Assembly: GCA_947627045.1 (NCBI GenBank)
Contig: CANQUM010000004.1
Location: 1-33,334, forward strand
DNA from: an uncultured Clostridia bacterium
GTDB lineage: Bacteria; Bacillota; Clostridia; Oscillospirales; Ruminococcaceae
Length of the DNA stretch: 33,334 nucleotides
Direction of reading: 5' to 3'
The position numbers and the translations under genes were made by a program. The notes under the pieces are model-generated. The model was not told where the DNA came from and made no database searches. It worked only from the letters and a program-made list of their open reading frames with translations. Shown piece by piece: positions 9,589 through 26,564 of the stretch. Every line of letters begins with the position of its first letter. Within the stretch, counting starts at the first letter, position 1.

Positions 9589-11268
9589 TTATCTTTTAAC
9601 CGAATCAATTTTTGCCTTTGCTGTCGCTATTTTGCTGACCAAACTATTTACACGGTTTTCAATATTAGACCGATTAATAGATTCAATTGACGATTCAACC
9701 TCGTTGAGTAAATCTTTAATTTCAGTATCTGAAGCAACTTCTAAGAATTTAACTGCATTATCATTTATAACATCAGCAATTACAATACCTGCATTTATTT
9801 TTACGTCAACTGTATGCTGACTATCAATACTGTCAGTCTTTTCTTTTAATGATAATAACTTCTTCCAAAGTTTTTCATATTCATCATATTCCTTTCCCGA
9901 CTGGGAAACTTTTGAATTCTGATATTTATCAATTCCTTTAAGACAATCAGCAATATCACAATATATTTGATTGATTGGTTTAGCGTCTTTTGTATCTTCA
10001 AACCATTCTGCAGAATTTCTATATTTATCGTTTTTAGTATAATTAAAAAATGAATTGCCGAAACTGTCGCATACTTCTATGTATCCATTTTCATTTTCGC
10101 TTTTTAGTTCTTCAAGGACATTAACTGTACCTATTGATTTTCCATTTTTATCTCTTTGATCAATTCCAAGTCTTATTTTATTTATAACGGATGCGTCTTC
10201 TGTACTTAATTCACCATCCTCCAGCAGAAATTCAGATAGCTTTATATAAGCATCTGAAACCGTAGGATCTGTTAATATTGCCTCATAATAATCTTCATAA
10301 TCGACTGCATTTTTTAATATATAATCATAATTTGCTTTTTTTAACGATTCTGCCGAAACATATCCCCATACAGATGCAGCCGCAAATGTAACAGTTAGAA
10401 TAAAAGTAGTTAAAAAAAGTTTTAATACCCTTTTTTGTTTTTTTATGTAAACATCGTCAATCTCGGAAATGTGTTCCAAATCATATTTAAGTTCAGCCGC
10501 AGATTGATACCTATCCTCAGGATTACGCTGGGTACATTTTAATATTATTTTCTCCAATCCGCTTGAGAGAGTAGGATTTATTTGTGTGATAGGCTTGATC
10601 TCATACGGCGGTTCACAAGGACTGCAGCCTGTAACCAAATGATATAATGTTGCACCAAGACAGTATATATCTGTTCTTGCATCAGTCTGACCCATTCCTC
10701 CGAACTGCTCAGGAGCGGCATAACCGATAGTTCCAAGACAAGTGGTATCTGCTATATTCTTTTCTTTAAATTCTCTTGCCGTTCCAAAATCTATCAGCGT
10801 AACATCACCGTTTGGCTTGAGCATTATATTTGCGGGCTTCATATCTCTGTAAATAATAGCGGGAGTTCTTGTATGTAAATATCCTAAAACATCACATAGC
10901 TGTTTTGCCCAATTAATTACATTATCCTGCGGCTGTGCTCCAAATTCCTCAAGAGACTTGCTTAACGGATTTCCCTGTATATAATCCATTACTATTAAAA
11001 AAGTATCTTCTTCATCGATAATATCAACAATACTGGGTAGATTAGGATGACTCAGCTTTTTAAGCATATCAGTTTCAACAACTAATCCCTGCTTAACCAC
11101 TTCAAAATCCTTCATTCCGTCCTTACGAACTTCTTTAATAGCCCATTGTTTATTTGCCTTTTCATTCATAGCAAGATAAACAACGCTCATTCCGCCTTGC
11201 CCTATTTTATTTAATATTTTATATTTTCCTTCAATTAACGAACCTATTTCTAACATTGTATCCACCAT
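9589..11268 (-). CDS. Hanks-type Ser/Thr protein kinase, membrane-anchored
   Basis: The 559-residue protein has a complete N-terminal kinase domain (about residues 12-270): glycine loop GQGGMSVVY (22-31) beginning at G22, ATP-binding K45 in AIKEV, catalytic D142 in YRDMKPAN (Tyr in place of the usual His), DFG at 160-162, activation-loop threonines and APEQ at 185-188. A basic stretch and one membrane helix (about 282-303) follow. The outer part of about 250 residues lacks PASTA repeats and instead looks helical, possibly TPR-like, so the input is not the muropeptide sensing of PrkC/PknB. It follows the phosphatase gene with a 1-base gap. ATG at 11268 or, with GGTGG 5 bases upstream, ATG at 11256 may be used. 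It probably phosphorylates the FHA protein and other operon products. Confidence 0.93.
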   Translation of the reverse strand: MVDTMLEIGSLIEGKYKILNKIGQGGMSVVYLAMNEKANKQWAIKEVRKDGMKDFEVVKQGLVVETDMLKKLSHPNLPSIVDIIDEEDTFLIVMDYIQGNPLSKSLEEFGAQPQDNVINWAKQLCDVLGYLHTRTPAIIYRDMKPANIMLKPNGDVTLIDFGTAREFKEKNIADTTCLGTIGYAAPEQFGGMGQTDARTDIYCLGATLYHLVTGCSPCEPPYEIKPITQINPTLSSGLEKIILKCTQRNPEDRYQSAAELKYDLEHISEIDDVYIKKQKRVLKLFLTTFILTVTFAAASVWGYVSAESLKKANYDYILKNAVDYEDYYEAILTDPTVSDAYIKLSEFLLEDGELSTEDASVINKIRLGIDQRDKNGKSIGTVNVLEELKSENENGYIEVCDSFGNSFFNYTKNDKYRNSAEWFEDTKDAKPINQIYCDIADCLKGIDKYQNSKVSQSGKEYDEYEKLWKKLLSLKEKTDSIDSQHTVDVKINAGIVIADVINDNAVKFLEVASDTEIKDLLNEVESSIESINRSNIENRVNSLVSKIATAKAKIDSVKR

Positions 11269-11269
11269 T

Positions 11270-12049
11270 CTATATCGCCTTGATCAATAAAGCGGTAATA
11301 TTATCCCTCTCTTGACGCTGTTTGTTTAGATCTATGAGATAATCCAATCTGTTCTCCATAGAATTCACATCATTTATAACATTTCCGTTCAGGTTTTCAA
11401 ATATTTCGTTTGCACTGATCATATGCCTGAAACCGTCAGAACAAATCATATAAACCGAATTGCTTTTTACATCGCCAAAAAACATATCGGGATAAACATT
11501 TTCCGATGCTCCGCAGCATTGAAGAAGTACACTTCTTCTGGGATCGTTTTCTGCCTCCTCAATAGTCATATGTCCAAGCTCTACTTCCCTGGCAACAAAA
11601 GTCTGGTCATTTGTCAATATACGCAATTCATTTGTAATCTCATATACCCTTGAATCTCCGATATTCAAAATATAATATCTATTTTGCGTTATTAGCATAG
11701 CAACGACTGTAGTGCCAAGATTTATTCCCATATTTTCTCCATAGCTTTTTATTTTTCTATTTTGAACATTTATAATATTTTCCCATTGGCTTTTTATAAC
11801 AGAATCCTCAATAAATGAATTACATATATAGGGAAAGTCGTTAAACAGCCATTCATCAAATGATCTTATAACTGAAGCGCTTGCTACTTCACCTTTAGCT
11901 AAACCGCCCATACCATCGCACAATACTGCAAATACCATTTCACCGTATTCAGTTCTTAATCGTTTTAATAAAAAGCAATCTTGATTAGTTTCTTTAACAT
12001 TACCTATATCTGTTTTTGCAGAAATTAAAAATTCCATTTTAATTACCAC
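11270..12049 (-). CDS. PP2C-type Ser/Thr phosphatase
   Basis: This about 255-259-residue protein is a PPM/PP2C phosphatase of the PrpC/Stp type, which removes phosphate from Ser/Thr with two Mn/Mg ions. Metal-binding acidic residues are visible: D24 in ETNQDC (Gln where NED is usual), D45 in CDGMGG, D132 in GDSRVY, D205 in CSDGF and D249 in RDNITALL. There is no signal or membrane helix, so it is cytosolic. It immediately precedes the kinase gene, the common kinase-phosphatase pairing. The start is uncertain: GTG at 12049 is only 3 bases from AAAGG, while ATG at 12037 has a weak GTGG 8 bases upstream. Confidence 0.93.
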   Translation of the reverse strand: MVIKMEFLISAKTDIGNVKETNQDCFLLKRLRTEYGEMVFAVLCDGMGGLAKGEVASASVIRSFDEWLFNDFPYICNSFIEDSVIKSQWENIINVQNRKIKSYGENMGINLGTTVVAMLITQNRYYILNIGDSRVYEITNELRILTNDQTFVAREVELGHMTIEEAENDPRRSVLLQCCGASENVYPDMFFGDVKSNSVYMICSDGFRHMISANEIFENLNGNVINDVNSMENRLDYLIDLNKQRQERDNITALLIKAI

Positions 12050-12073
12050 ATACCTTTCTGTTACAGGAATTTT

Positions 12074-12511
12074 CTATAACACATAAACTAGAATCTCAAT
12101 TTCAGTATCACTGAATACTTCTATTATTACATCCTTAACACTATCCCAATCCAATTTATCATGACCCGATCCGATTCTTGGAATTGCTAACTTAGTAATC
12201 TTAATCTCTTTACACTGTTCCCTCATATCAACAAGAGTTTCTCTAAGTGAGTCATATGTAGGCTTTTGATATCCTCGTGCTTTAGTAACAAGATTAAACA
12301 CGTTATCTACTAAAAGTGCCTTTCCTAAATATCCGTACTTTTTTCTTTTCTCAATCGGGTATTTCTGAAATAACTTATTGCGCATATTGTAAACTTTCTT
12401 AAACTTCTTAGCAATGCCGGATCCGAGTGCAAAATCTCCGGATATACAATGAGCTAAGTAATATTCCTTTGGAGCTTTAAATAAATCGCCTTTTATTTCA
12501 TTAATGATCAT
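12074..12511 (-). CDS. TARG1/DarG-like macrodomain ADP-ribosyl hydrolase
   Basis: The 145-residue protein is a stand-alone macrodomain that closely follows the TARG1 (OARD1) pattern: HCISGDFALGSGIAKKF forms the ADP-ribose-binding loop, VTKARGYQKPTY carries the lysine (K77) that corresponds to or lies next to the catalytic Lys of human TARG1, and IPRIGSGHDKLDW carries the catalytic-type Asp (D118). TARG1-type domains release ADP-ribose from acidic residues, and the DarG antitoxin uses the same fold to remove ADP-ribose from DNA bases. No DarT-like toxin is present nearby. It lies between the FHA and phosphatase genes, with AGGAGG and an ATG start, so it appears to be an operon member. Substrate unknown. 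Confidence 0.88.
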   Translation of the reverse strand: MIINEIKGDLFKAPKEYYLAHCISGDFALGSGIAKKFKKVYNMRNKLFQKYPIEKRKKYGYLGKALLVDNVFNLVTKARGYQKPTYDSLRETLVDMREQCKEIKITKLAIPRIGSGHDKLDWDSVKDVIIEVFSDTEIEILVYVL

Positions 12512-12553
12512 AATTATTCCTCCTAAAAATTTTTTGAGGTTACCTGTTAATTT

Positions 12554-13987
12554 TTAAAAAAGCCTGAACTCAAAATCTTCATTTGCAAAACTCAGCTTAT
12601 CTCCGTTAGAAATCTCCACTTCGATATTGCTGTTTATCTGTTTACCGTTCACATAAGTATGATTTGTAGAATTTGTATCAACAACATAAAACTTATTATC
12701 ACGAATTAAAATTTTTGCGTGGCTTCTGCTGACTGCCGCATTATCTCCAATAAAATAATCGACATAACTCTTTTCTTTGCCTATATTGAAAACGGGCTTG
12801 TTTATCATCACACGTTCACTGTTCTTTAATCTAATTATGTACGGTGATTGACACTTATCAGAAGCTAAAACTGTTGTTTCAGCAACAGCGCCGCCAGCTT
12901 GTGATAATACAGTGGTTTCACCGAAATTTGCATTCAGATGCTGTATATTTTCCTGCTGAATACCATTTTTCATTCCATCATTATTTAAAGAATTTCTATT
13001 TGATATATTTGAATAGATTCCCGAATCAGAACTGTTTAACGGCTTTTTCTGAATATTAATATTATTATTTATTCCCGGAACTGCAAATTGAGTATTTAAT
13101 GGTACTGATCTGCTGTCAATATTATTATGCTTTTTTCTTTTCTTTTGCGCTTTATACAAAGCAGCATTATCTTTGTTATAGTGCTGTAGTAAATAAAACA
13201 ATGAGATTTCCTGCTCGTTTGTATTCTGTTCAACAGCAGAAACAGGCTTTTGAACACTTTTATTCAAAACCGGCGGTTCATTTTTTAAAGGATAGGCAGG
13301 CATTGGACTTTTTTGAACAGCAGGTCTGCTTTCCAAAGGTTTTTTTGCCTTAGTTTTATCTGCCTTGATTTCGTTGACATTGTTTAATGTTGTGCTTTTT
13401 ATTGCCGGCTTTTTCTTCTGAATTTTATCAGCATTATCATCTATACTTTCTAAAATATTTTGAAATTCATATATAGAAAACGGCGAATTGCTGTTAAGAT
13501 AATTGATTATTACAGCAATGTAATCACAATTTTCTTTTTGGTCAAAGCTTGTACTAAACATTATGTTTTTAAAAAAGCCTTTTAAATCGGTTTCTCTATC
13601 ATCTAACACCTTTAACGGCAGACAAATCAACTCTGCTTCGCATGATGATACATCACAATATACATATTCCGTATCTAAAATCAAAGAATTTGCATCTATC
13701 ATATAATCTTCAGCAGAGATAAACCCTTTGACTATACTTTTAAAAACTCCAAGTAACCTTTTTTTAGTAACAGTTCCTGAAAAAAACTCATTTGCAGAAA
13801 TTTTTGAGGTAATACTGTATTTAAGCAATTTTTTCTCATTAATTTGTGTGTATACAGTGTTTGAAAATCCGGGAATTTTATTGTTTACTATCATCCCTAG
13901 AGTCAAAGAATCAATTTGTTCGCTCTCTTTTATTTCATAAACCAAGTATGTATTTGTTCCTTGATTTTCATAACTAAATTCAGTCAA
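12554..13987 (-). CDS. FHA-domain protein with N-terminal DUF6382-like domain
   Basis: The 477-residue protein starts at TTG with GAGGTG 8 bases upstream. Residues 1-about 185 form a domain of the DUF6382 type often found with FHA domains in Firmicutes. Residues about 190-350 are a low-complexity Lys/Pro/Asn linker. The C-terminal FHA domain (about 383-477) has the phosphothreonine-binding residues G403, R421-S422-H423, and N442 with VNG at 446-448. Just before it are two ETTVL motifs (357-361 and 370-374), placed like the ETTS phospho-site of GarA and OdhI, which binds the protein's own FHA domain after phosphorylation. With the adjacent kinase and phosphatase it probably reads or relays threonine phosphorylation to the Tad machine (inference). 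Confidence 0.88.
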   Translation of the reverse strand: MTEFSYENQGTNTYLVYEIKESEQIDSLTLGMIVNNKIPGFSNTVYTQINEKKLLKYSITSKISANEFFSGTVTKKRLLGVFKSIVKGFISAEDYMIDANSLILDTEYVYCDVSSCEAELICLPLKVLDDRETDLKGFFKNIMFSTSFDQKENCDYIAVIINYLNSNSPFSIYEFQNILESIDDNADKIQKKKPAIKSTTLNNVNEIKADKTKAKKPLESRPAVQKSPMPAYPLKNEPPVLNKSVQKPVSAVEQNTNEQEISLFYLLQHYNKDNAALYKAQKKRKKHNNIDSRSVPLNTQFAVPGINNNINIQKKPLNSSDSGIYSNISNRNSLNNDGMKNGIQQENIQHLNANFGETTVLSQAGGAVAETTVLASDKCQSPYIIRLKNSERVMINKPVFNIGKEKSYVDYFIGDNAAVSRSHAKILIRDNKFYVVDTNSTNHTYVNGKQINSNIEVEISNGDKLSFANEDFEFRLF

Positions 13988-19044: not shown

Positions 19045-19734
19045 TTAATAAGCACCCAATATCAGGGTTGCTATATATCCCAGAAAAATAAACGGTCCGA
19101 ATGGTATATAGTCTTTCATTTTCTTGACTTTTGCTGCAATCATTATTATTGATACTAAAAACGAAAGCAGCAAGCCGAATAAAAGCGTGTACATAACTGC
19201 ATAAATACCGCACATAAATCCAAGCGAGCTTATTAGCTTTATATCGCCGTAACCTATTCCACCGTGCATAATTTTTGATATTATAATCAATACCAAAAAA
19301 CAAATTATAAGTGCTGCAAAACTGCTTATCAGCATGGAAATAAAATTCTTATCGCCGCTGATAAGCTCTGTCAGCATAAAAATGAATCTAACAGATATAA
19401 GAATTATCGAAAGTATATTCGGTATCAAATGCGTTTTGAAGTCAATTATAAATGCACTTAACAACGCACAGAAAGACAATAATAATTTTATATTTAAAAC
19501 AGTTATCCCTATTTGTCTGAATGCAAAATATCCGCATAAAGCTGATACAATTACCGCACCTGTTACTGTTACAATATGCTCTGCGGTAATATTATTTAAA
19601 ATACGTTTATTAAATATTGAAATTGTCCTGACATCTATTTTCCTGCTTTTTGATAACCTGTTTACCAAATAAAAGCTGAAAATCACAGACGCACAAGCCG
19701 TCAATATCCATATAAGGATCGCTGTAAAAATCAT
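19045..19734 (-). CDS. tadV: Tad prepilin peptidase (A24 family, TadV/CpaA type)
   Basis: The 229-residue protein is an integral membrane aspartyl protease that cuts the leader from Flp and TadE prepilins. About six membrane helices are visible, and the two catalytic aspartates are D98 in IDFKTHLIPN and D164 in GIGYGDIKLIS, the conserved GxGD motif. There is no N-terminal methylase domain, which fits the TadV/CpaA branch. I chose the ATG at 19734 because GGAG is 8 bases upstream; the extended frame upstream runs into a hairpin. It follows the pilin gene by 104 bases that contain a 13-bp stem-loop. Confidence 0.92.
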   Translation of the reverse strand: MIFTAILIWILTACASVIFSFYLVNRLSKSRKIDVRTISIFNKRILNNITAEHIVTVTGAVIVSALCGYFAFRQIGITVLNIKLLLSFCALLSAFIIDFKTHLIPNILSIILISVRFIFMLTELISGDKNFISMLISSFAALIICFLVLIIISKIMHGGIGYGDIKLISSLGFMCGIYAVMYTLLFGLLLSFLVSIIMIAAKVKKMKDYIPFGPFIFLGYIATLILGAY

Positions 19735-19761
19735 ATTAATATCTCCGTTTGTATGCTCTGT

Positions 19762-19801
19762 ATCACAGACCGAAAACATATTAATGTATTCGGTCTGTGA
19801 T
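19762..19801 (-). repeat. Perfect 13-bp stem-loop after the pilin gene
   Basis: ATCACAGACCGAA (19762-19774) and TTCGGTCTGTGAT (19789-19801) pair perfectly around a 14-base loop whose own ends (ACAT/ATGT) can pair. On the minus strand it is followed by ATACAGAGCATAC, with no U-run, so it is not a classic terminator. Its position 38 bases after the pilin stop suggests an RNA-stabilising or processing element that keeps pilin mRNA abundant compared with the downstream genes. Confidence 0.8.
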
Positions 19802-19838
19802 CTAAACAAAGCAATCTTACTTTTAAATTTTTAATTAA

Positions 19839-20112: not shown

Positions 20113-20976
20113 TTAGAAAAACGCTCCGCCCAATGCAGACGAAAGAACAATAATCATAATACCAACAAAGATAAGCATTGTAGGGATTAATAGCTTTGAT
20201 GCTGCAGCTTCTCCCTTTTGAAGCATTATTTCCCTTTTAAGTCCCCATATTTCAGAGGACTGCTTTGCAAGAAAATCGCTGAGATCTGCTCCGCCCTTTT
20301 CCATACTCTGCACAAGCGCCGTAGCAAACTTTTTTACATCCTGAGAGTCGCTCATCTGACCAAATCTGTTTATAGCATCATGCTCTGAAACACCGTTTTC
20401 CATATCTGAGCAGGTCGTTTTCATAATATCGTAGATTGCCCCATCTTTGCTGTTTGCAATGGTTGTCCACGCTTCTTTTAAAATCATTCCCGAATTAATC
20501 AAAAGAGCAAGCGTTGATACTACCTCCGGAAGCTCGGCAATGCACTCCTGTCTTCGCTTATCAATATCCGATTTTGTTTTTGTCAGAAAATAATAGGCAG
20601 ATATTCCGCTCAAAACAATGCCTACTGTTAAAAACAACGTCCATTTATCTATGAGCATTCCCGAAAGGAGAAAACTCACAGCAAGAAATATGTAAACGAA
20701 AGTCAGACACTGTGCCCATGCAACCGACGCATAATATTGCGCATATTGAGGCTCAAAATATATTTTCGTCTGTGAAATCAGTTTTTCACTTATTCTTCCT
20801 CTTAATCTGAATGGTTTTGTATTTGAAAGAGCATAACCTACTGTGTATATTTCTTTCATTGGATAATCTTTGTCGTCTAAATTTTCAATGTAGCTTTCAT
20901 ATACCTTTCCCTTAATTAGAAAAATTAAAAATGAAACTGCTAATGCTGTTCCTATCAAAAGAAGCGCTATCTGCAT
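20113..20976 (-). CDS. tadC: Tad inner-membrane platform protein TadC
   Basis: The 287-residue protein is a type II secretion F-domain (GspF) membrane protein, the second platform subunit of Tad pili. It has a membrane helix at residues 1-20, a helix pair at about 92-130, a cytoplasmic T2SSF domain (about 140-255) with ECIAELPEVVSTLALLINSG and a FATALVQSMEKGGADLSDFL motif, and a last helix at about 262-285. TadB and TadC together bind the TadA ATPase. It starts at ATG with AAGGAG, 5 bases after tadB. Confidence 0.92.
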   Translation of the reverse strand: MQIALLLIGTALAVSFLIFLIKGKVYESYIENLDDKDYPMKEIYTVGYALSNTKPFRLRGRISEKLISQTKIYFEPQYAQYYASVAWAQCLTFVYIFLAVSFLLSGMLIDKWTLFLTVGIVLSGISAYYFLTKTKSDIDKRRQECIAELPEVVSTLALLINSGMILKEAWTTIANSKDGAIYDIMKTTCSDMENGVSEHDAINRFGQMSDSQDVKKFATALVQSMEKGGADLSDFLAKQSSEIWGLKREIMLQKGEAAASKLLIPTMLIFVGIMIIVLSSALGGAFF

Positions 20977-20981
20977 TTTAT

Positions 20982-21827
20982 TTACTCCTTGACATCCATA
21001 ATTTTATTTCCGATTTTATAAGCGGCTACAAATACGCCTAAAGCAACTGTAATTGCAGCTACTCCTACTAACGTAGTAAATCCTTCCGCAAACTGTGAAC
21101 TCATACCCTTCATAACGCCAACTATAACAATCGGAATTACATTCATAGCCCTAAGCTGCATTTTATTTGAGGTGAGTTTAGTTTGAATTTCTTCATTTAT
21201 AATCATTTTTTCACTTATAATATCATTTGTTCTTCTTACAATTTCTTTGAAATTACCGCCTGTCCTCATACAAATTGCAAATACATTAGCAAAGTTTTCA
21301 ATATCAGCTATTCCGCTTCTTTTCCCAAAATCTTCTATTGACTGCTCAAACGGAACATTATTCATCTGTGCGTTTATCATCTCGCCTACTTCTTTTACTA
21401 TTAAGGAATTTTCAGTATACTGCATAACCAGATCGTTATATGTGCTGTCTATTGAATCCTTAATATTCATTCCTCCCGATAGTGATGTTGAGAGCGATGA
21501 TAAAAAATCTCTGAACTGAATACTAAGCTTCTTTTTTCTCTTTTCGCATAAGCTGCTGCAAAGTGATTTCATAAAGACTTTATTTGCAATAATTCCAAAA
21601 AGAGAAAAAACAACAGTGTTGCTTATATATGTAGCTAAAGTTGAAACCCCATCTTTTTGAAATAGATTACCGTAAAAAATGTAACCTACAATTCCTCCGA
21701 CAATAAACAGAAAAAGAAAATATATTATTCTTTCTATCGGAGACATTACATATACCCGATAATTAAGCATATCGGTATTTATTGAAGATTTAATATATTT
21801 TGGCTCTTTAATTTTAGTCTTTGACAA
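20982..21827 (-). CDS. tadB: Tad inner-membrane platform protein TadB
   Basis: The 281-residue protein is the first GspF-like platform subunit. It has helices at about residues 30-50 and 62-80, a cytoplasmic T2SSF domain (about 95-215) with FRDFLSSLSTSLSGGMNIKD and FAICMRTGGNFKEIV, and two C-terminal helices (about 225-275). The start codon is TTG with a strong AGGAGG 8 bases upstream. It lies between tadA (11-base gap) and tadC (5-base gap), the usual Tad order. Confidence 0.92.
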   Translation of the reverse strand: MSKTKIKEPKYIKSSINTDMLNYRVYVMSPIERIIYFLFLFIVGGIVGYIFYGNLFQKDGVSTLATYISNTVVFSLFGIIANKVFMKSLCSSLCEKRKKKLSIQFRDFLSSLSTSLSGGMNIKDSIDSTYNDLVMQYTENSLIVKEVGEMINAQMNNVPFEQSIEDFGKRSGIADIENFANVFAICMRTGGNFKEIVRRTNDIISEKMIINEEIQTKLTSNKMQLRAMNVIPIVIVGVMKGMSSQFAEGFTTLVGVAAITVALGVFVAAYKIGNKIMDVKE

Positions 21828-21838
21828 TTTAACACCTC

Positions 21839-23077
21839 CTATATAGTAGTTTTCACACCTGAAATTTTCAGCTTAAAATCATTAACCAGCTTATTCCCGG
21901 TTCTTATTAGGCTTCCTGATACCTTTTCAAGTGTACTGTTTTCATCCTCTTGAAAAACATACAGCGGATTGAGAATAATTTTCCCGTTTTCATAACCCAC
22001 AACCTCTGTGATCTCCATTGTCTTTCTTGAATGATCGCGAAGTCTTGATAAATGAATGATTATATCAACCGCTGACGCTATCTGCTGTCTTATTGCCTCG
22101 AGCGGAAGTCCCGCAGAACCCTGAAGCACCATAGTTTCAAGACGGCTCAGCATATCTTCAGTTGAATTGGCATGTCCTGTAGACAATGAACCGTCATGCC
22201 CTGTGTTCATAGCCTGCAGCATATCCAAAGCTTCTCCTCCTCTGACCTCGCCTACAACAATTCGTTCAGGTCTCATACGAAGTGATGACTTAATCAAATC
22301 TCTTATTGTTATCTGACCAACACCTGAAGTATTGGCATTTCTGGTTTCAAGACTGACAAGATTTTTTATTCCTACTATCTGAAGTTCGGCTGAGTCCTCA
22401 ATAGTGATAACACGCTCATCCTTCGGTATAAAATTAGACAATGCGTTTAAAAATGTAGTTTTGCCCGAGCCTGTTCCTCCGCTTATAAATATATTGAATT
22501 TTGCCTCTACCAAAACCCTTAGTTTATCTGCTATTTCCCTTGTTATAGAACCGTATGAGATCAGCTTTTCAATAGTCATAGGTTCCTTTGAAAATTTTCT
22601 TATAGTTACTGTTGGACCACATAACGCTATAGGTGGCAGTACAACATTAACACGGGAACCGTCAGGAAGTCTTGTATCGCATATTGGATTTGCCTGATTA
22701 ACTTCTCTTCCGGCAAAGCCAACTATTCTCTGTATTATATCCTCAAGACGTCTTTGACTTTCAAATTGCTTATCCAGTTTTTCCAGCTTTCCGTTTTTTT
22801 CAATAAAAATATTTTCATGCCCGTTTATCATAACCTCTGTTATTGAATCGTCTTTAATGATCGTATCTAAAAGTCCCAACCCTCTTATAGAACTGTATAC
22901 CTGCTCAACTATTGATATCTTTTCTTCTATTGAGATATATGTATTCTTTGTTAAATCAGTAGTAATTTCTTCAACACGAGTCTCAAGCTCATCATCGGTA
23001 AGCTGGCTTAGCGGTAAGTTATCTGTAATGTATTTTTTTATTTGATCAATTATCTCCTGCTGTTTCTCTTTATTCAT
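21839..23077 (-). CDS. tadA: Tad pilus assembly ATPase TadA/CpaF
   Basis: The 412-residue protein is a type II/IV secretion hexameric ATPase that powers pilus assembly. An N-terminal helical domain (1-about 100) precedes a CpaF-type core: Walker [10 protein letters not shown] (200-208), Asp box TIEDSAELQ (225-233), Walker [17 protein letters not shown] (272-287) and His box STGHANS (299-305). All catalytic motifs are intact. It starts at ATG with AGGAG 5 bases upstream and follows tadZ by 8 bases. Confidence 0.96.
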
Positions 23078-23085
23078 AACTACTC

Positions 23086-24150
23086 CTAATCAAGAATTCT
23101 GTTAAACACTGTCTTATCCAAAAGTGTTTGAATGATTTGATATGTTGACGCATGTTCAAATTTCTGAATGCCGCCAAATTCTTTGATATTCAGCCCTGAA
23201 ACTGTTTTTCCCAGCTTATTGCTGAATTTATTGTATATAATTCCTGATTTGTCTAATATATTAACATTGCGGTTATCTTCAATTATTTTTAGAGCTGAGT
23301 ACATTCTTTCAAATTTTGAATTAGATATTTCTGATCCGTCAGACACAAAAACAATTTTGTCACATCTGTCTAACACATATACATTTTTCTCTTCAAAATT
23401 CAGCTCCAAGTCAATAATTACATATTCGTATTCACCTAATATATTAATTTCGTTTAGCAGCTTTTCTATGTCCTCCTTATATAATTCATTCATATGAAGC
23501 GGTGATTTTGCAGAAGATATATAATTTAAGCCGGTTTCATCATTTTTTATAATACTTGCTATTTTTAATCCTACGTTAGACTTCCTGCTTTTTAATGAAT
23601 AAATCAAATCACTGAAATCAAATTGTCCTTCCCCATTAAAAAACTTATCGCAATAACCTGTTAATGATAAATCCAAAAATAAAACGCTTTTACCTCTTCT
23701 TGCAAGAATCTTTGAGTATGATACTGCAATTGTTGTATTGCCAACACCGCCGCTTGCCGAAACAAATGCAATAAACTTAGTGTCTGAATCATTAAATCTA
23801 AGCTTTGCATCATCAGAAATATTCTCCGAATACAAACTTAATATCTGTTTATAAATCAAATCTGCTTTTTGATATTTGAAAATTGCTTTTTGATTATGAA
23901 GCATTTCAATATCGTTCGATTCAACTAAATAAGCCAGTCCGCACGACTCGGGAATAATATTTGAATTTACTTCAAATTTGTCGCTAACAAGAAATACATT
24001 TATTTTTGTATCATTAATTGATTTGATTGCCACATCCTTATCTGTAAAAGAGTATATTTCCAATTTATCAGAATATTTTGACATAAATACTGATGTGATT
24101 CTGTTCAAATAACTTGAATCGTTTTCTAAAATTGCAAGTTTAATCTTCAT
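23086..24150 (-). CDS. tadZ: TadZ/CpaE-like MinD-family protein with receiver-like N-terminus
   Basis: The 354-residue protein has an N-terminal degenerate receiver-like domain (about residues 1-105: KLAILENDSSYLNRI at the start) and a ParA/MinD-like domain (about 124-354) with FVSASGGVGNTTIAVSYS, VLFLDLSLTGYCDKF and YEYVIIDLELNF. TadZ proteins place the Tad machine at a cell pole. In the P-loop (133-140) both lysines of the KGGxGKT deviant Walker A are missing: Ser at the signature position and Asn138 in place of the P-loop Lys, so ATP hydrolysis is doubtful. It is the first gene of the operon, with GGAG 8 bases before ATG, and faces the invertible cassette. Confidence 0.88.
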   Translation of the reverse strand: MKIKLAILENDSSYLNRITSVFMSKYSDKLEIYSFTDKDVAIKSINDTKINVFLVSDKFEVNSNIIPESCGLAYLVESNDIEMLHNQKAIFKYQKADLIYKQILSLYSENISDDAKLRFNDSDTKFIAFVSASGGVGNTTIAVSYSKILARRGKSVLFLDLSLTGYCDKFFNGEGQFDFSDLIYSLKSRKSNVGLKIASIIKNDETGLNYISSAKSPLHMNELYKEDIEKLLNEINILGEYEYVIIDLELNFEEKNVYVLDRCDKIVFVSDGSEISNSKFERMYSALKIIEDNRNVNILDKSGIIYNKFSNKLGKTVSGLNIKEFGGIQKFEHASTYQIIQTLLDKTVFNRILD

Positions 24151-24299
24151 TGTTCACTCTCCTTTAACAGTTGATTTGGCTTTGCAATAATCACTTTTCC
24201 AAAGTTTTTAGGTTAAATATATACACTTGTTTTATAACTTTAGATTATTATAAATGAAGCTATAAAAATAAAATAATTGCATATAATATAGTCAGAATT
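24151..24299 (-). other. Operon leader between tadZ and the recombinase cassette
   Basis: These 149 bases carry the tadZ ribosome site but no convincing promoter of their own on the minus strand; the best -10 (TATAAT in CATTTATAATAATC) lacks a matching -35. No gene is seen. Transcription is therefore likely to come from across the left inverted repeat. Confidence 0.6.
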
Positions 24300-24329
24300 T
24301 TTCGTAGAATATTATGTTGTGCGAAAAAA
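24300..24329 (+). repeat. Left 30-bp inverted repeat arm
   Basis: The arm reads TTTCGTAG... to ...GTGCGAAAAAA and is the exact reverse complement of 25533-25562. Its A-run, extended to nine A's by adjacent bases, also provides the U-run of the recombinase terminator. Confidence 0.97.
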
Positions 24330-24361
24330 AAACAGCTGCAAATCTATAAAGATTTACAGCT
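24324..24361 (-). terminator. Terminator of the recombinase gene, inside the cassette
   Basis: AGCTGCAAATC (24334-24344) and GATTTACAGCT (24351-24361) form an 11-bp stem, one pair being a wobble in the minus-strand RNA, followed by G and nine T's. It would stop recombinase transcripts from entering the Tad operon in the present orientation, and from entering the right-hand genes after inversion. Confidence 0.92.
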
Positions 24362-24367
24362 ATTTTG

Positions 24368-25444
24368 TTAATGTATAGTATTAAGAAGTTCTAATTGAGT
24401 TCTTTTTAATTCAAGTGATGAATGTACGTAAATGTTTAAAGTAATTGATACATTTGAATGTCCTAATACTTCGCTAAGAGTTTTTGTATCAACTCCTACC
24501 TCAATACATCGGGTGGCAAAGGTATGTCTTAGAGCGTGAAAATTCAGGTCTCTTAAATTACATTCTTTGAGATATTCATGAAATCTGTACTGATATGTTC
24601 TGGGATCCAAAAAATCATACGTGCTTCCCGGAATAATAAAATCCGATTTTCTTTGTTTGTAAAAATATTTAATATATTTAAGTATAAAGCTAGGTAACGG
24701 CACTGTCCTCTTTGAAGATGATGTTTTCGGTTCTCCTGCGATAAGAATAGTTTTAGGTCCGGTAGATTCAGCATTAATATTCTTTATTCTTTGTATGGTT
24801 CTTTTTATATTTATTGTTGATTCATCAAAATTTATATCCTCCCACTTTAATCCGCATATCTCTCCTATCCTTAAACCCGTATTCAGTGCTATTAAAATTC
24901 CCAGCTTTGATTCGTCAATATCGTTAATTAAATAATTTTTTAATATATTTTGTTCCGATATGTTAAATACATCTATTTCAGTTTTTTCTTGAGACGGCGA
25001 AATAATTCTTCCTAAAGGTTTTTTTATCAAGCTCCTTTCCAAAGCAAATTCAAACGCCGATTTGATTATATATATCATTATTCTTATGCTTCCTGATGAT
25101 AATCCTCCTTTTCCGTCAAGTCTCCCGCATCTTAGCTTGCTTTCTAAAAACATATTTATAAAAAGCGAATCTATTTTCTTAATCTTTCTTTTTCCCAACT
25201 CTGGTATTAAATGAGTTGTAATTACTTCGTAATATTTTACATACGTCGTCGGCTTGAGACGTATTTTGTTGCTGTTCAGCCATAACATCAAAAGTTCCCC
25301 AAAAGAAATATCGTTTTTAAGCGTTTTTCTAATTTTTTTGTGTTTTAAATAATAATAATTTTTGTCCGTAAAATTCGGAACACTTTCAACATCCAAAAAA
25401 TAATCTTTAAATGATTTGCTGTTTAAATACCTGATTGTTTTCAT
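24368..25444 (-). CDS. Tyrosine recombinase (phage-integrase family), putative cassette invertase
   Basis: The 358-residue protein has a SAM-like core-binding domain (about 48-140) and a catalytic domain (about 160-350) with the full active-site set: R192 in TGLRIGE, K240 in EPKTSSSKRTVPL, H303 and R306 in NFHALRHTFAT, H329 in LGHSN and the nucleophile Y339 in NIYVH. It looks like Tn916/phage-type integrases. It stands alone, with no excisionase or other mobile genes, and is enclosed by perfect inverted repeats, so I read it as the invertase of its own cassette rather than an integrase of an island. The ribosome site is GGGAG. A promoter (TTGTTG-17-TATAAA) lies upstream, overlapping the divergent outward promoter. 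Confidence 0.93.
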   Translation of the reverse strand: MKTIRYLNSKSFKDYFLDVESVPNFTDKNYYYLKHKKIRKTLKNDISFGELLMLWLNSNKIRLKPTTYVKYYEVITTHLIPELGKRKIKKIDSLFINMFLESKLRCGRLDGKGGLSSGSIRIMIYIIKSAFEFALERSLIKKPLGRIISPSQEKTEIDVFNISEQNILKNYLINDIDESKLGILIALNTGLRIGEICGLKWEDINFDESTINIKRTIQRIKNINAESTGPKTILIAGEPKTSSSKRTVPLPSFILKYIKYFYKQRKSDFIIPGSTYDFLDPRTYQYRFHEYLKECNLRDLNFHALRHTFATRCIEVGVDTKTLSEVLGHSNVSITLNIYVHSSLELKRTQLELLNTIH

Positions 25445-25471
25445 TTTATACTCCCTTTACAATAAAATAAT

Positions 25472-25500
25472 TTTATAAATGTGTTGACAAATTGCAACAA
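25472..25500 (-). promoter_or_regulatory. Candidate promoter of the recombinase gene
   Basis: On the minus strand TTGTTG (complement of 25495-25500) and TATAAA (complement of 25472-25477) are 17 bases apart. The -35 overlaps the outward promoter on the other strand and an imperfect palindrome TGTTG-N8-CAACA, so the two promoters may compete or share a regulator. Confidence 0.5.
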
Positions 25501-25513
25501 AATATATTATAAT
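25484..25513 (+). promoter_or_regulatory. Strong outward-facing promoter carried by the invertible cassette
   Basis: TTGACA (25484-25489) and TATAAT (25508-25513) are both full consensus hexamers with an 18-base spacer. It points right, across the right repeat, where a terminator lies at once. Inversion would move it to 24349-24378 pointing left, about 190 bases from tadZ. Confidence 0.88.
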
Positions 25514-25532
25514 ACAGTTTGAGAATTATTTG

Positions 25533-25562
25533 TTTTTTCGCACAACATAATATTCTACGAAA
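25533..25562 (-). repeat. Right 30-bp inverted repeat arm
   Basis: The arm reads TTTTTTCGCACAACATAA to ...CTACGAAA on the plus strand and matches the left arm without mismatch over 30 bases; beyond that the flanks diverge on both sides. Confidence 0.97.
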
Positions 25563-25590
25563 GGCTTATTTGTTTTAAATAGGCTTTTTT
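25560..25590 (+). terminator. Terminator just outside the right repeat
   Basis: AAAGGCTTATTT and AAATAGGCTTTT form a 12-bp stem with two G-U pairs around GTTTT, ending in a run of six T's. It lies directly downstream of the outward promoter in the present orientation and would limit that transcript to about 70-80 bases. Confidence 0.72.
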
Positions 25591-25745
25591 AGTTATTATA
25601 GATTTTTTGTAAAAATGTTTAGAAAAATATATTTATTATACAAGAGCAATAAAAAATATAACCTTTATTTTCCTATTTGTCAAATTATATTATATTATAT
25701 TATAAAAATTAGCAATAAAATACTTAAATTAAATATTTTATTTAC
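25591..25745. other. AT-rich intergenic stretch, no gene seen
   Basis: Very AT-rich sequence with no open frame with a ribosome site, no hairpin and no repeat that I can support. It separates the cassette from the SDR gene promoter. Confidence 0.5.
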
Positions 25746-25805: not shown

Positions 25806-26564
25806 ATGAAAACTGCACTTGTAACAGGAGCCAGCTCGGGAATTGGGTATGAAATATCACGGGTGTTGAGCCATTTGGGCTATGAGCTTATATTGGTCGC
25901 TAGGCGTGAGGACAGATTGTTAGAACTGCAAAAGGTTCTTGAGACGCATTCTGAAATTGTTTTATGCGATTTATCCAAAGAAGATGAATGTAAAGAGCTT
26001 TATAAAAAGGTTAAGGAAAAAGATATTTCTGTACTGATTAACAATGCAGGGTTCGGTCTTTGCGGGAATTTTACCGAAACCGACTTGGATAAAGAGCTTT
26101 CTATGATAAATGTAAATGTCAAAGCCGTCCACATTCTGACAAAGCTGTTTTTAAAGGATTTTGTCAAAAAAGACGACGGCTATATTCTAAATGTTGCTTC
26201 GTCGGCAGGATTAATGGCAGGCGGACCTCTGATGGCAACATACTACGCAACTAAAGCATATGTCGTTGATCTAACCCGTGCTGTCAACACTGAGCTTGCA
26301 GATATGGGAAGTAACGTATATGTAGGAGCTTTGTGTCCGGGACCTGTGGATACAGAATTCAGCGAAGTTGCCGATGTTAAATTTGAAATGAAAGGCATAA
26401 GCAAAAAGTACTGCGCTAAATATGCCCTTTACAATATGTTTGAAAACCGAAAAATGATAATAGTTCCAACAGCTGAAATGAAACTGTCCGTATGCGCTTC
26501 AAGATTTATACCTACACGACCGCTTTTGGAAATTACAAAGCTTATTCAAAAAAAGAAGCAATAA
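25806..26564 (+). CDS. Short-chain dehydrogenase/reductase
   Basis: The 252-residue protein is a classical SDR: TGASSGIG at 7-14 binds the dinucleotide, VARRED with R33-R34 suggests NADPH preference, NNAG at 79-82 is the fold signature, and the catalytic set is S132/S133, Y146 and K150 (YYATK). The C-terminal part, with MKLSVCASRFIPTRPLL, resembles the DltE/YqjQ-like branch of membrane-associated reductases whose substrates are mostly unknown. It is monocistronic, with AAGAAGGG before ATG and its own promoter. Substrate not deducible. Confidence 0.92.
   Translation: MKTALVTGASSGIGYEISRVLSHLGYELILVARREDRLLELQKVLETHSEIVLCDLSKEDECKELYKKVKEKDISVLINNAGFGLCGNFTETDLDKELSMINVNVKAVHILTKLFLKDFVKKDDGYILNVASSAGLMAGGPLMATYYATKAYVVDLTRAVNTELADMGSNVYVGALCPGPVDTEFSEVADVKFEMKGISKKYCAKYALYNMFENRKMIIVPTAEMKLSVCASRFIPTRPLLEITKLIQKKKQ

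Follow-up and report, generated by a model that had tools for sequence, protein, structure and literature searches.

A tyrosine recombinase gene within its own predicted invertible promoter segment ahead of a Tad pilus operon

What does a tyrosine recombinase gene do between two inverted repeats, directly ahead of a Tad pilus operon? The question is raised by a 33,334-nucleotide stretch, hereafter the window, of contig CANQUM010000004.1 from an uncultured Clostridia bacterium of the Ruminococcaceae, where a sequence-only reading had proposed a DNA inversion cassette that encodes its own recombinase. Our analysis strongly supports an inversion cassette, through the repeats and similarly placed outward promoters of its relatives, a reversed segment in one pair of related loci, and contig ends at the repeats in two genomes of the genus (G004 and G014). 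Very probably, the cassette is a self-encoded invertible promoter, in which the recombinase flips a 1.26-kb segment holding its own gene together with an outward promoter, P1. The window locus is known in one orientation, from the assembly alone, and we infer the flipping of the segment in the source strain from its sequence.

The repeats that bound the segment are perfect over 30 bp, as had been claimed, and still match at 97% when extended to 33 bp. A search with the 30-mer, allowing up to three mismatches, returned just these two sites in the 2.1-Mb genome and none for the reversed control. By eye, the sequences just beyond the left and the right repeat show no match to each other. Since the repeats are inverted and the recombinase gene is the sole sizeable open reading frame (ORF) between them, the direct repeats, cargo and transfer genes of an integrative mobile element are missing. 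The recombinase itself proved complete, in line with the earlier claim of all six catalytic residues: R192, K240, H303, R306, H329, and Y339 align with those of Int structures, and the R-K-H-R-H-Y set, which defines the tyrosine recombinase family, is invariant across 36 aligned recombinases. Its nearest solved structures are Int proteins, with PDB 6emy as the best match (1.3e-19), which we take to be an Int of the Tn1549 type. The catalytic residues align with this closest solved relative, whereas the window cassette is devoid of transfer genes between its repeats and Pfam recognises no arm-binding domain in its enzyme.

The claim that the repeats enclose nothing besides the recombinase gene had to be dropped, for P1 and an intrinsic terminator also lie inside. 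P1 is located upstream of the recombinase start and points outward through the right repeat, away from the tad genes as assembled. Thus, inverted repeats enclose a promoter, as in an invertible-promoter phase switch, and an invertase gene shares the segment with an outward promoter, as in a Hin-type segment. An AT-rich hairpin with a T run starts at the right repeat's outer edge and is retained in G004 (fold -11.1 kcal/mol); it was seen by eye, since the terminator scan requires at least three G-C pairs and therefore listed only the terminator after the recombinase gene. A second promoter, P2, lies outside the segment and points into it, and both of its hexamers and their spacing are preserved in G004 as compared by eye. 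All these promoters are sequence matches; sites of at least 9/12 occur here at the chance level (13 found against 12.5 expected), and a 12/12 site is unusual.

Table 1. Features of the switch, the tad operon and their surroundings (window positions).
Feature	Position	Strand	Basis or remark
A24 prepilin peptidase	19045..19809	-	domain search
T2SSF protein, TadC-like by position	20113..20976	-	domain search
T2SSF protein, TadB-like by position	20982..21827	-	domain search
T2SSE-type ATPase, CpaF/TadA-like	21839..23077	-	domain search
tadZ, at the head of the predicted target operon	23086..24150	-	TadZ domain
Leader, left repeat to tadZ	24151..24299	-	promoter scan
Left inverted repeat, predicted recombination site, tad side	24300..24329	+	repeat search
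Intrinsic terminator after the recombinase gene, ahead of the left repeat	24329..24366	-	scan; fold -21.1 kcal/mol
Tyrosine recombinase, 358 aa, intact ORF	24368..25444	-	Phage_integrase and SAM-like core-binding domain
Weak candidate recombinase promoter inside the segment, TTGCAA-16-TAAAAT, 9/12	25470..25497	-	promoter scan
P1, outward promoter inside the segment, TTGACA-18-TATAAT, 12/12	25484..25513	+	sigma-70-type promoter scan
Right inverted repeat, exact reverse complement of the left	25533..25562	-	repeat search
AT-rich hairpin with T run, from the outer edge of the right repeat	25560..25588	+	by eye; fold -9.5 kcal/mol
P2, promoter outside the segment, pointing in, TTGACA-17-TATATT, 11/12	25655..25683	-	promoter scan
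Short-chain dehydrogenase, promoter side	25806..26564	+	homologues in 15/15 genus genomes; adjoins the island here

This arrangement enables us to propose a putative switching cycle. As deposited, the locus is probably in the tad OFF state, since the hairpin beside the right repeat lies in the path of P1 and the tad operon shows no evident promoter of its own. In this state, transcripts from P1 would stop at the hairpin, and P2 would transcribe the recombinase gene, with the transcript ending at the terminator before the left repeat. Recombination of the two 30-bp repeats by the recombinase would then invert the segment, upon which transcription from P1 would cross the left repeat and enter the pilus operon at tadZ. 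In the inverted, ON state P2 would read the recombinase gene backwards, making recombinase synthesis dependent on orientation. The geometry fits such a cycle, and from it we infer the activity of the promoters, the control of tad by orientation and the coupling of P2 to orientation.

The locus beside the cassette is a Tad pilus locus, as had been proposed, with the five genes identified in Table 1. The tad island (window approximately 3530–25720) is missing from the same site in the genomes G005 and G012, whose copies of its two neighbours stand side by side. In G004 it occupies a different place, at 93.9% DNA identity over 15.4 kb versus 81%–83% for chromosomal neighbours; the switch thus appears to travel together with the pilus genes. 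No direct repeat was found at the island borders beyond a 10-bp AT stretch. The island comprises the tad cluster, a gene for a 1823-aa Ig-like protein, kinase, phosphatase and FHA genes, and the switch. Its genes for a protein kinase, a PP2C-type phosphatase, a macro-domain protein and FHA proteins lie within the tad cluster (9589–13987), which hints at a control of the pilus by phosphorylation.

Relatives of the recombinase were searched in 61 genomes, the window's own included, and in 297 genomes of the family, 61 of which gave a match at 1e-50 or better. The resulting 95 recombinases derive from 14 plus 80 examined regions, one of which fell below the score cut and one of which holds two recombinases, together with the window. 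Flanking inverted repeats with a score of at least 17, a cut picked after the first loci had been viewed, surround 73 of the 95, whereas 1 passed among 100 control ORFs taken at these loci. Around the other 22 recombinases none was found, and 13 of them are away from contig ends (the remaining nine lie within 700 bp of one). Median segment length is 1403 bp (range 1190–1673 bp; n = 72, one cassette with a very long repeat being left out), and the recombinase gene is separated from the repeats by gaps with medians of about 174 bp (5') and 71 bp (3'). Judged from these sequences, related bacteria contain many cassettes of the kind found in the window.

Such repeats did not turn up around more distant recombinases: 38 were taken, seven were dropped for short flanks, and none of the remaining 31 is flanked by inverted repeats, nor is any other scorable recombinase of the window's own genome. 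A recombinase-profile search of 299 genomes of the phylum gave 20 matches, of which the best five, the window included, have repeats and the other 15 have none. A score boundary for the group, clean in this search (5/5 versus 0/15), is contradicted by the named records, in which ten of 15 recombinases have repeats regardless of score. The group boundary is unclean in that some recombinases at 165–199 bits are without repeats and Enterococcus ones at 134–141 bits have them. Viral contigs contain three relatives of the recombinase at 25%–30% identity. Some genomes carry more than one member: G242 has a tandem pair of recombinases (locus L214), and G131 has two cassettes (L220 and L224) with an identical repeat. 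Cross-talk between loci is possible in G242 and G131.

The outward promoter is conserved in place. Among the 71 cassettes scanned (two of the 73 were dropped for gaps shorter than 60 bp), the 5' gap and repeat hold an outward promoter of at least 10/12 in 59, compared with 136 of 1420 shuffles, and an inward one in 20. Perfect 12/12 outward promoters are present in 20 of the 71 and in none of the 1420 shuffles. Terminator-like hairpins facing the promoter within 150 bp outside the repeat accompany 32 of 73 cassettes versus 7 of 365 shuffles. Two further features of the window did not generalise: a terminator directly after the recombinase gene, strong in the window, is weak across the group (8/73 versus 8/365 shuffles), and an external inward promoter like P2 reaches at least 10/12 in 12 of 70 cassettes versus 42 of 700 shuffles. 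Since P2 is preserved in G004, our reading of it was retained at the tad locus. With ORFs called mechanically, 50 of 64 nearest neighbours on the recombinase 3' side point away from the cassette and 38 of 67 on the promoter side point towards it, so that the assembled state across the group looks mostly OFF.

Comparison of related loci provided evidence for inversion. In two species of one genus, the loci L220 (G131) and L232 (G325) share a collinear flank of 3282 bp, 91.9% identical and starting at the repeat, and the adjoining segment of 1388 bp, 89.8% identical, runs the opposite way. Because L224, the second cassette of G131, carries the same repeat, an exchange between loci is possible as the source of this difference; the L232 segment is 89.8% identical to L220 and 86.7% identical to L224. 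Reversed segments were likewise found between different genera in the pairs L235/L236 and L214/L237, at 64%–76% identity. Of the two orientations sought in related genomes, the opposite one appears in L220/L232, but most other comparable pairs agree. Pairs with matching flanks number 43 in the same and 14 in the opposite orientation (three counted in both), and with at least 85% identity across 200 bp required, the numbers are seven and one. Given this excess, inversion may be rare, or one state may be dominant. Two strain pairs of Enterococcus raffinosus plasmids also showed the same orientation in both cases, with no inversion. Contig ends cluster at the cassettes, with 20 of the 95 recombinases within 700 bp of one and then 4, 3, 4, and 4 per further 700 bp. 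At L181, the repeat runs on into flank sequence until the contig end, as if one flank were joined to both segment ends.

The tad locus itself could be followed into few relatives. Among the 14 other genomes of the genus, a close tadZ is present only in G004 (97% identical) and G014 (45%), and the next full-length-like match, in G001, is at 26%. In G004, the 30-bp repeat forms the start of one contig and the end of another, both stopping at the same base; the two copies share the same single-base change relative to the window, and the pattern occurs nowhere else in that genome. In G014, the tadZ contig breaks off 88 bp short of the gene; its terminal 22 bp are found again in a second contig, two bases from its start and ahead of a strong G-C hairpin; this pairing rests on the 22 shared bp, and a reversed control with two mismatches allowed also gave two matches. 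Breaks at the repeats are what an assembler would be expected to produce from mixed orientations. Alternatively, the contig ends could stem from coverage loss or binning and the tad cassette could be locked in one orientation, in keeping with our finding no recombinase of the window's kind in G004 (best match 2.3e-7) or beside the tad contig end of G014. Against this stands the G004 repeat, which lies only at two contig ends with the same stop base and would form a branch point if the flanks join both segment ends. Contigs broken by a duplicated cassette are expected to continue into the segment. We regard the locked cassette as unlikely, yet as the best surviving of the alternatives.

Somewhat less probable is that the cassette inverts without controlling tad, P1 having another purpose and the pilus operon being served by an undetected promoter of its own. 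The scan was limited to sigma-70-type sites, which leaves room for such a promoter; within that scope, the leader from the left repeat to tadZ has no minus-strand site of at least 9/12. Furthermore, a recombinase 48% identical to that of the window precedes a TadZ gene in the same geometry in another genus (G152), and the prevailing outward direction of the nearest 3'-side gene among relatives also argues against it. The recombinases of the window, G152, and G001 group together (support 0.98), and the sites of all three cassettes contain TTCGTAGAATA.

It is very improbable that the cassette is no switch but a small transposon of the tyrosine-recombinase kind, the 30-bp inverted repeats being its termini: a lone recombinase between inverted repeats and several relatives per genome in places (six matches each in G163 and G237, for example) would suit it, but the repeat and a close recombinase are single in the window's genome, cassette position and neighbours are constant in orthologous groups, the sites, which vary between cassettes, resemble by eye two inverted half-sites with a short spacer between them, the outward promoter keeps its place, and L220 and L232 differ by inversion, not by presence.

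As for the genes that self-encoded invertible promoters of this group might serve, the 50 proteins on the 3' side whose ORFs face away include, among the best 25 of 69 Pfam families, at least ten with LytTR, at least ten with response-regulator domains, at least three with chemoreceptor domains, at least two with TadZ domains, and at least two with leucine-rich repeats. On the promoter side, LytTR occurs in at least four of 29 proteins, among the best 25 of 44 families. In Thomasclavelia saccharogumia DSM 17460 (L033:1-16852), two divergent open frames, each exceeding 2500 aa, flank a cassette of the group; flipping could select between two giant, probably secreted proteins, and no outward promoter of at least 10/12 was found inside this cassette. 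Vagococcus allomyrinae (L035:7542-11745) has a cassette with a 23-bp repeat, followed, as read by eye, by genes for a signal peptidase-like and a TasA-like secreted protein. Further named carriers are a plasmid of Ruminococcus albus 7, in which the second of two neighbouring recombinases is the carrier, a Vescimonas fastidiosa plasmid, and Enterococcus plasmids. On plasmid pCR1A of Enterococcus gilvus (L265:3651-9008), WxL, DUF916, and LPXTG genes are preceded by a related recombinase whose inverted repeat is weak (score 17). At L239:2668-4260 (G176), the extended inverted repeat (score 172) appears by eye to encode the beginning of a secreted protein on either side of the cassette, which would suit a pair of genes with one common switch.

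Among known systems, the design is reminiscent of the Hin segment, in which an outward promoter lies between two sites and flipping connects it to an operon. The window cassette resembles this H segment of Salmonella flagellar phase variation in its outward promoter and its invertase inside the segment, whereas its enzyme is an unrelated recombinase of the tyrosine type and Hin is of the serine type. Published work places the Hin invertase inside its invertible segment and describes recombinases as occasionally so placed (PMC5903667), and puts this serine recombinase under a Fis-bound enhancer (PMC3798978). RecV of Clostridioides difficile acts on several sites without lying beside them, only Cdi7 having a recombinase nearby; common to it and the window cassette are a tyrosine recombinase, inverted repeats and, as predicted for the latter, the control of surface and signalling genes (PMC5903667). 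The window recombinase differs from RecV in lying inside the segment, with a repeat unique in its genome, and thus lacks the external position of the RecV and FimB type. With FimB/FimE and fimS it has in common the tyrosine type and, as predicted, promoter inversion before a pilus operon, but fimS is not known to contain a recombinase gene. In Escherichia coli, a tyrosine recombinase flips the promoter ahead of the pilus operon, and fimS measures 314 bp (PMC9993118).

The pneumococcal hsdS locus is similar in having its recombinase among invertible sequences; coding sequence is inverted there and, as proposed, a promoter here. The gene of its tyrosine recombinase, PsrA, is reportedly positioned among those sequences. 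Inversion at this locus shuffles the coding sequences of a methylase subunit (PMC7096588, PMC4948785). For the clostridial inverton group 139 and invertase group 35, a published analysis links tyrosine-type recombinase genes to inverted repeats of about 25 bp, calls an invertase nearby when it intersects or lies within 5 kb, and gives coordinates for one group-139 example with a 206-bp spacer (PMC11892184). Clostridia, a tyrosine-type recombinase and inverted repeats are shared with group 139, from which the window cassette may be set apart by the placement of its invertase and the length of its segment. In the open-access literature, with few subscription papers covered, neither a tyrosine recombinase encoded within the invertible promoter segment that it flips nor an invertible Tad promoter turned up, which is a weak sign of novelty. 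With its default settings, PhaseFinder reportedly looks for inverted repeats over spans shorter than these cassettes. Given the Hin-like design, the tyrosine enzyme and the absence of a precedent in that literature, we consider the cassette a variant of a known switch type.

A broader reading is possible but tentative. Autonomous flip cassettes, each with a tyrosine recombinase, an outward promoter and private sites, might be widespread before unrelated regulators, pili and giant surface proteins, in the manner of Hin before flagellar genes; P2 might make recombinase in the OFF state only, so that the ON state shuts off its own enzyme; and the switchable pilus island might move between species as a unit. 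If the proposed switch is real, it would be a tyrosine-recombinase counterpart of the textbook Hin switch. Self-contained on/off switches would then be readable from sequence, the recombinase giving the site, the promoter and the target gene, and would offer many pairs of recombinase and site that may be orthogonal. In these bacteria, Tad pili, LytTR regulators and giant surface proteins could then be tested directly for phase variation.
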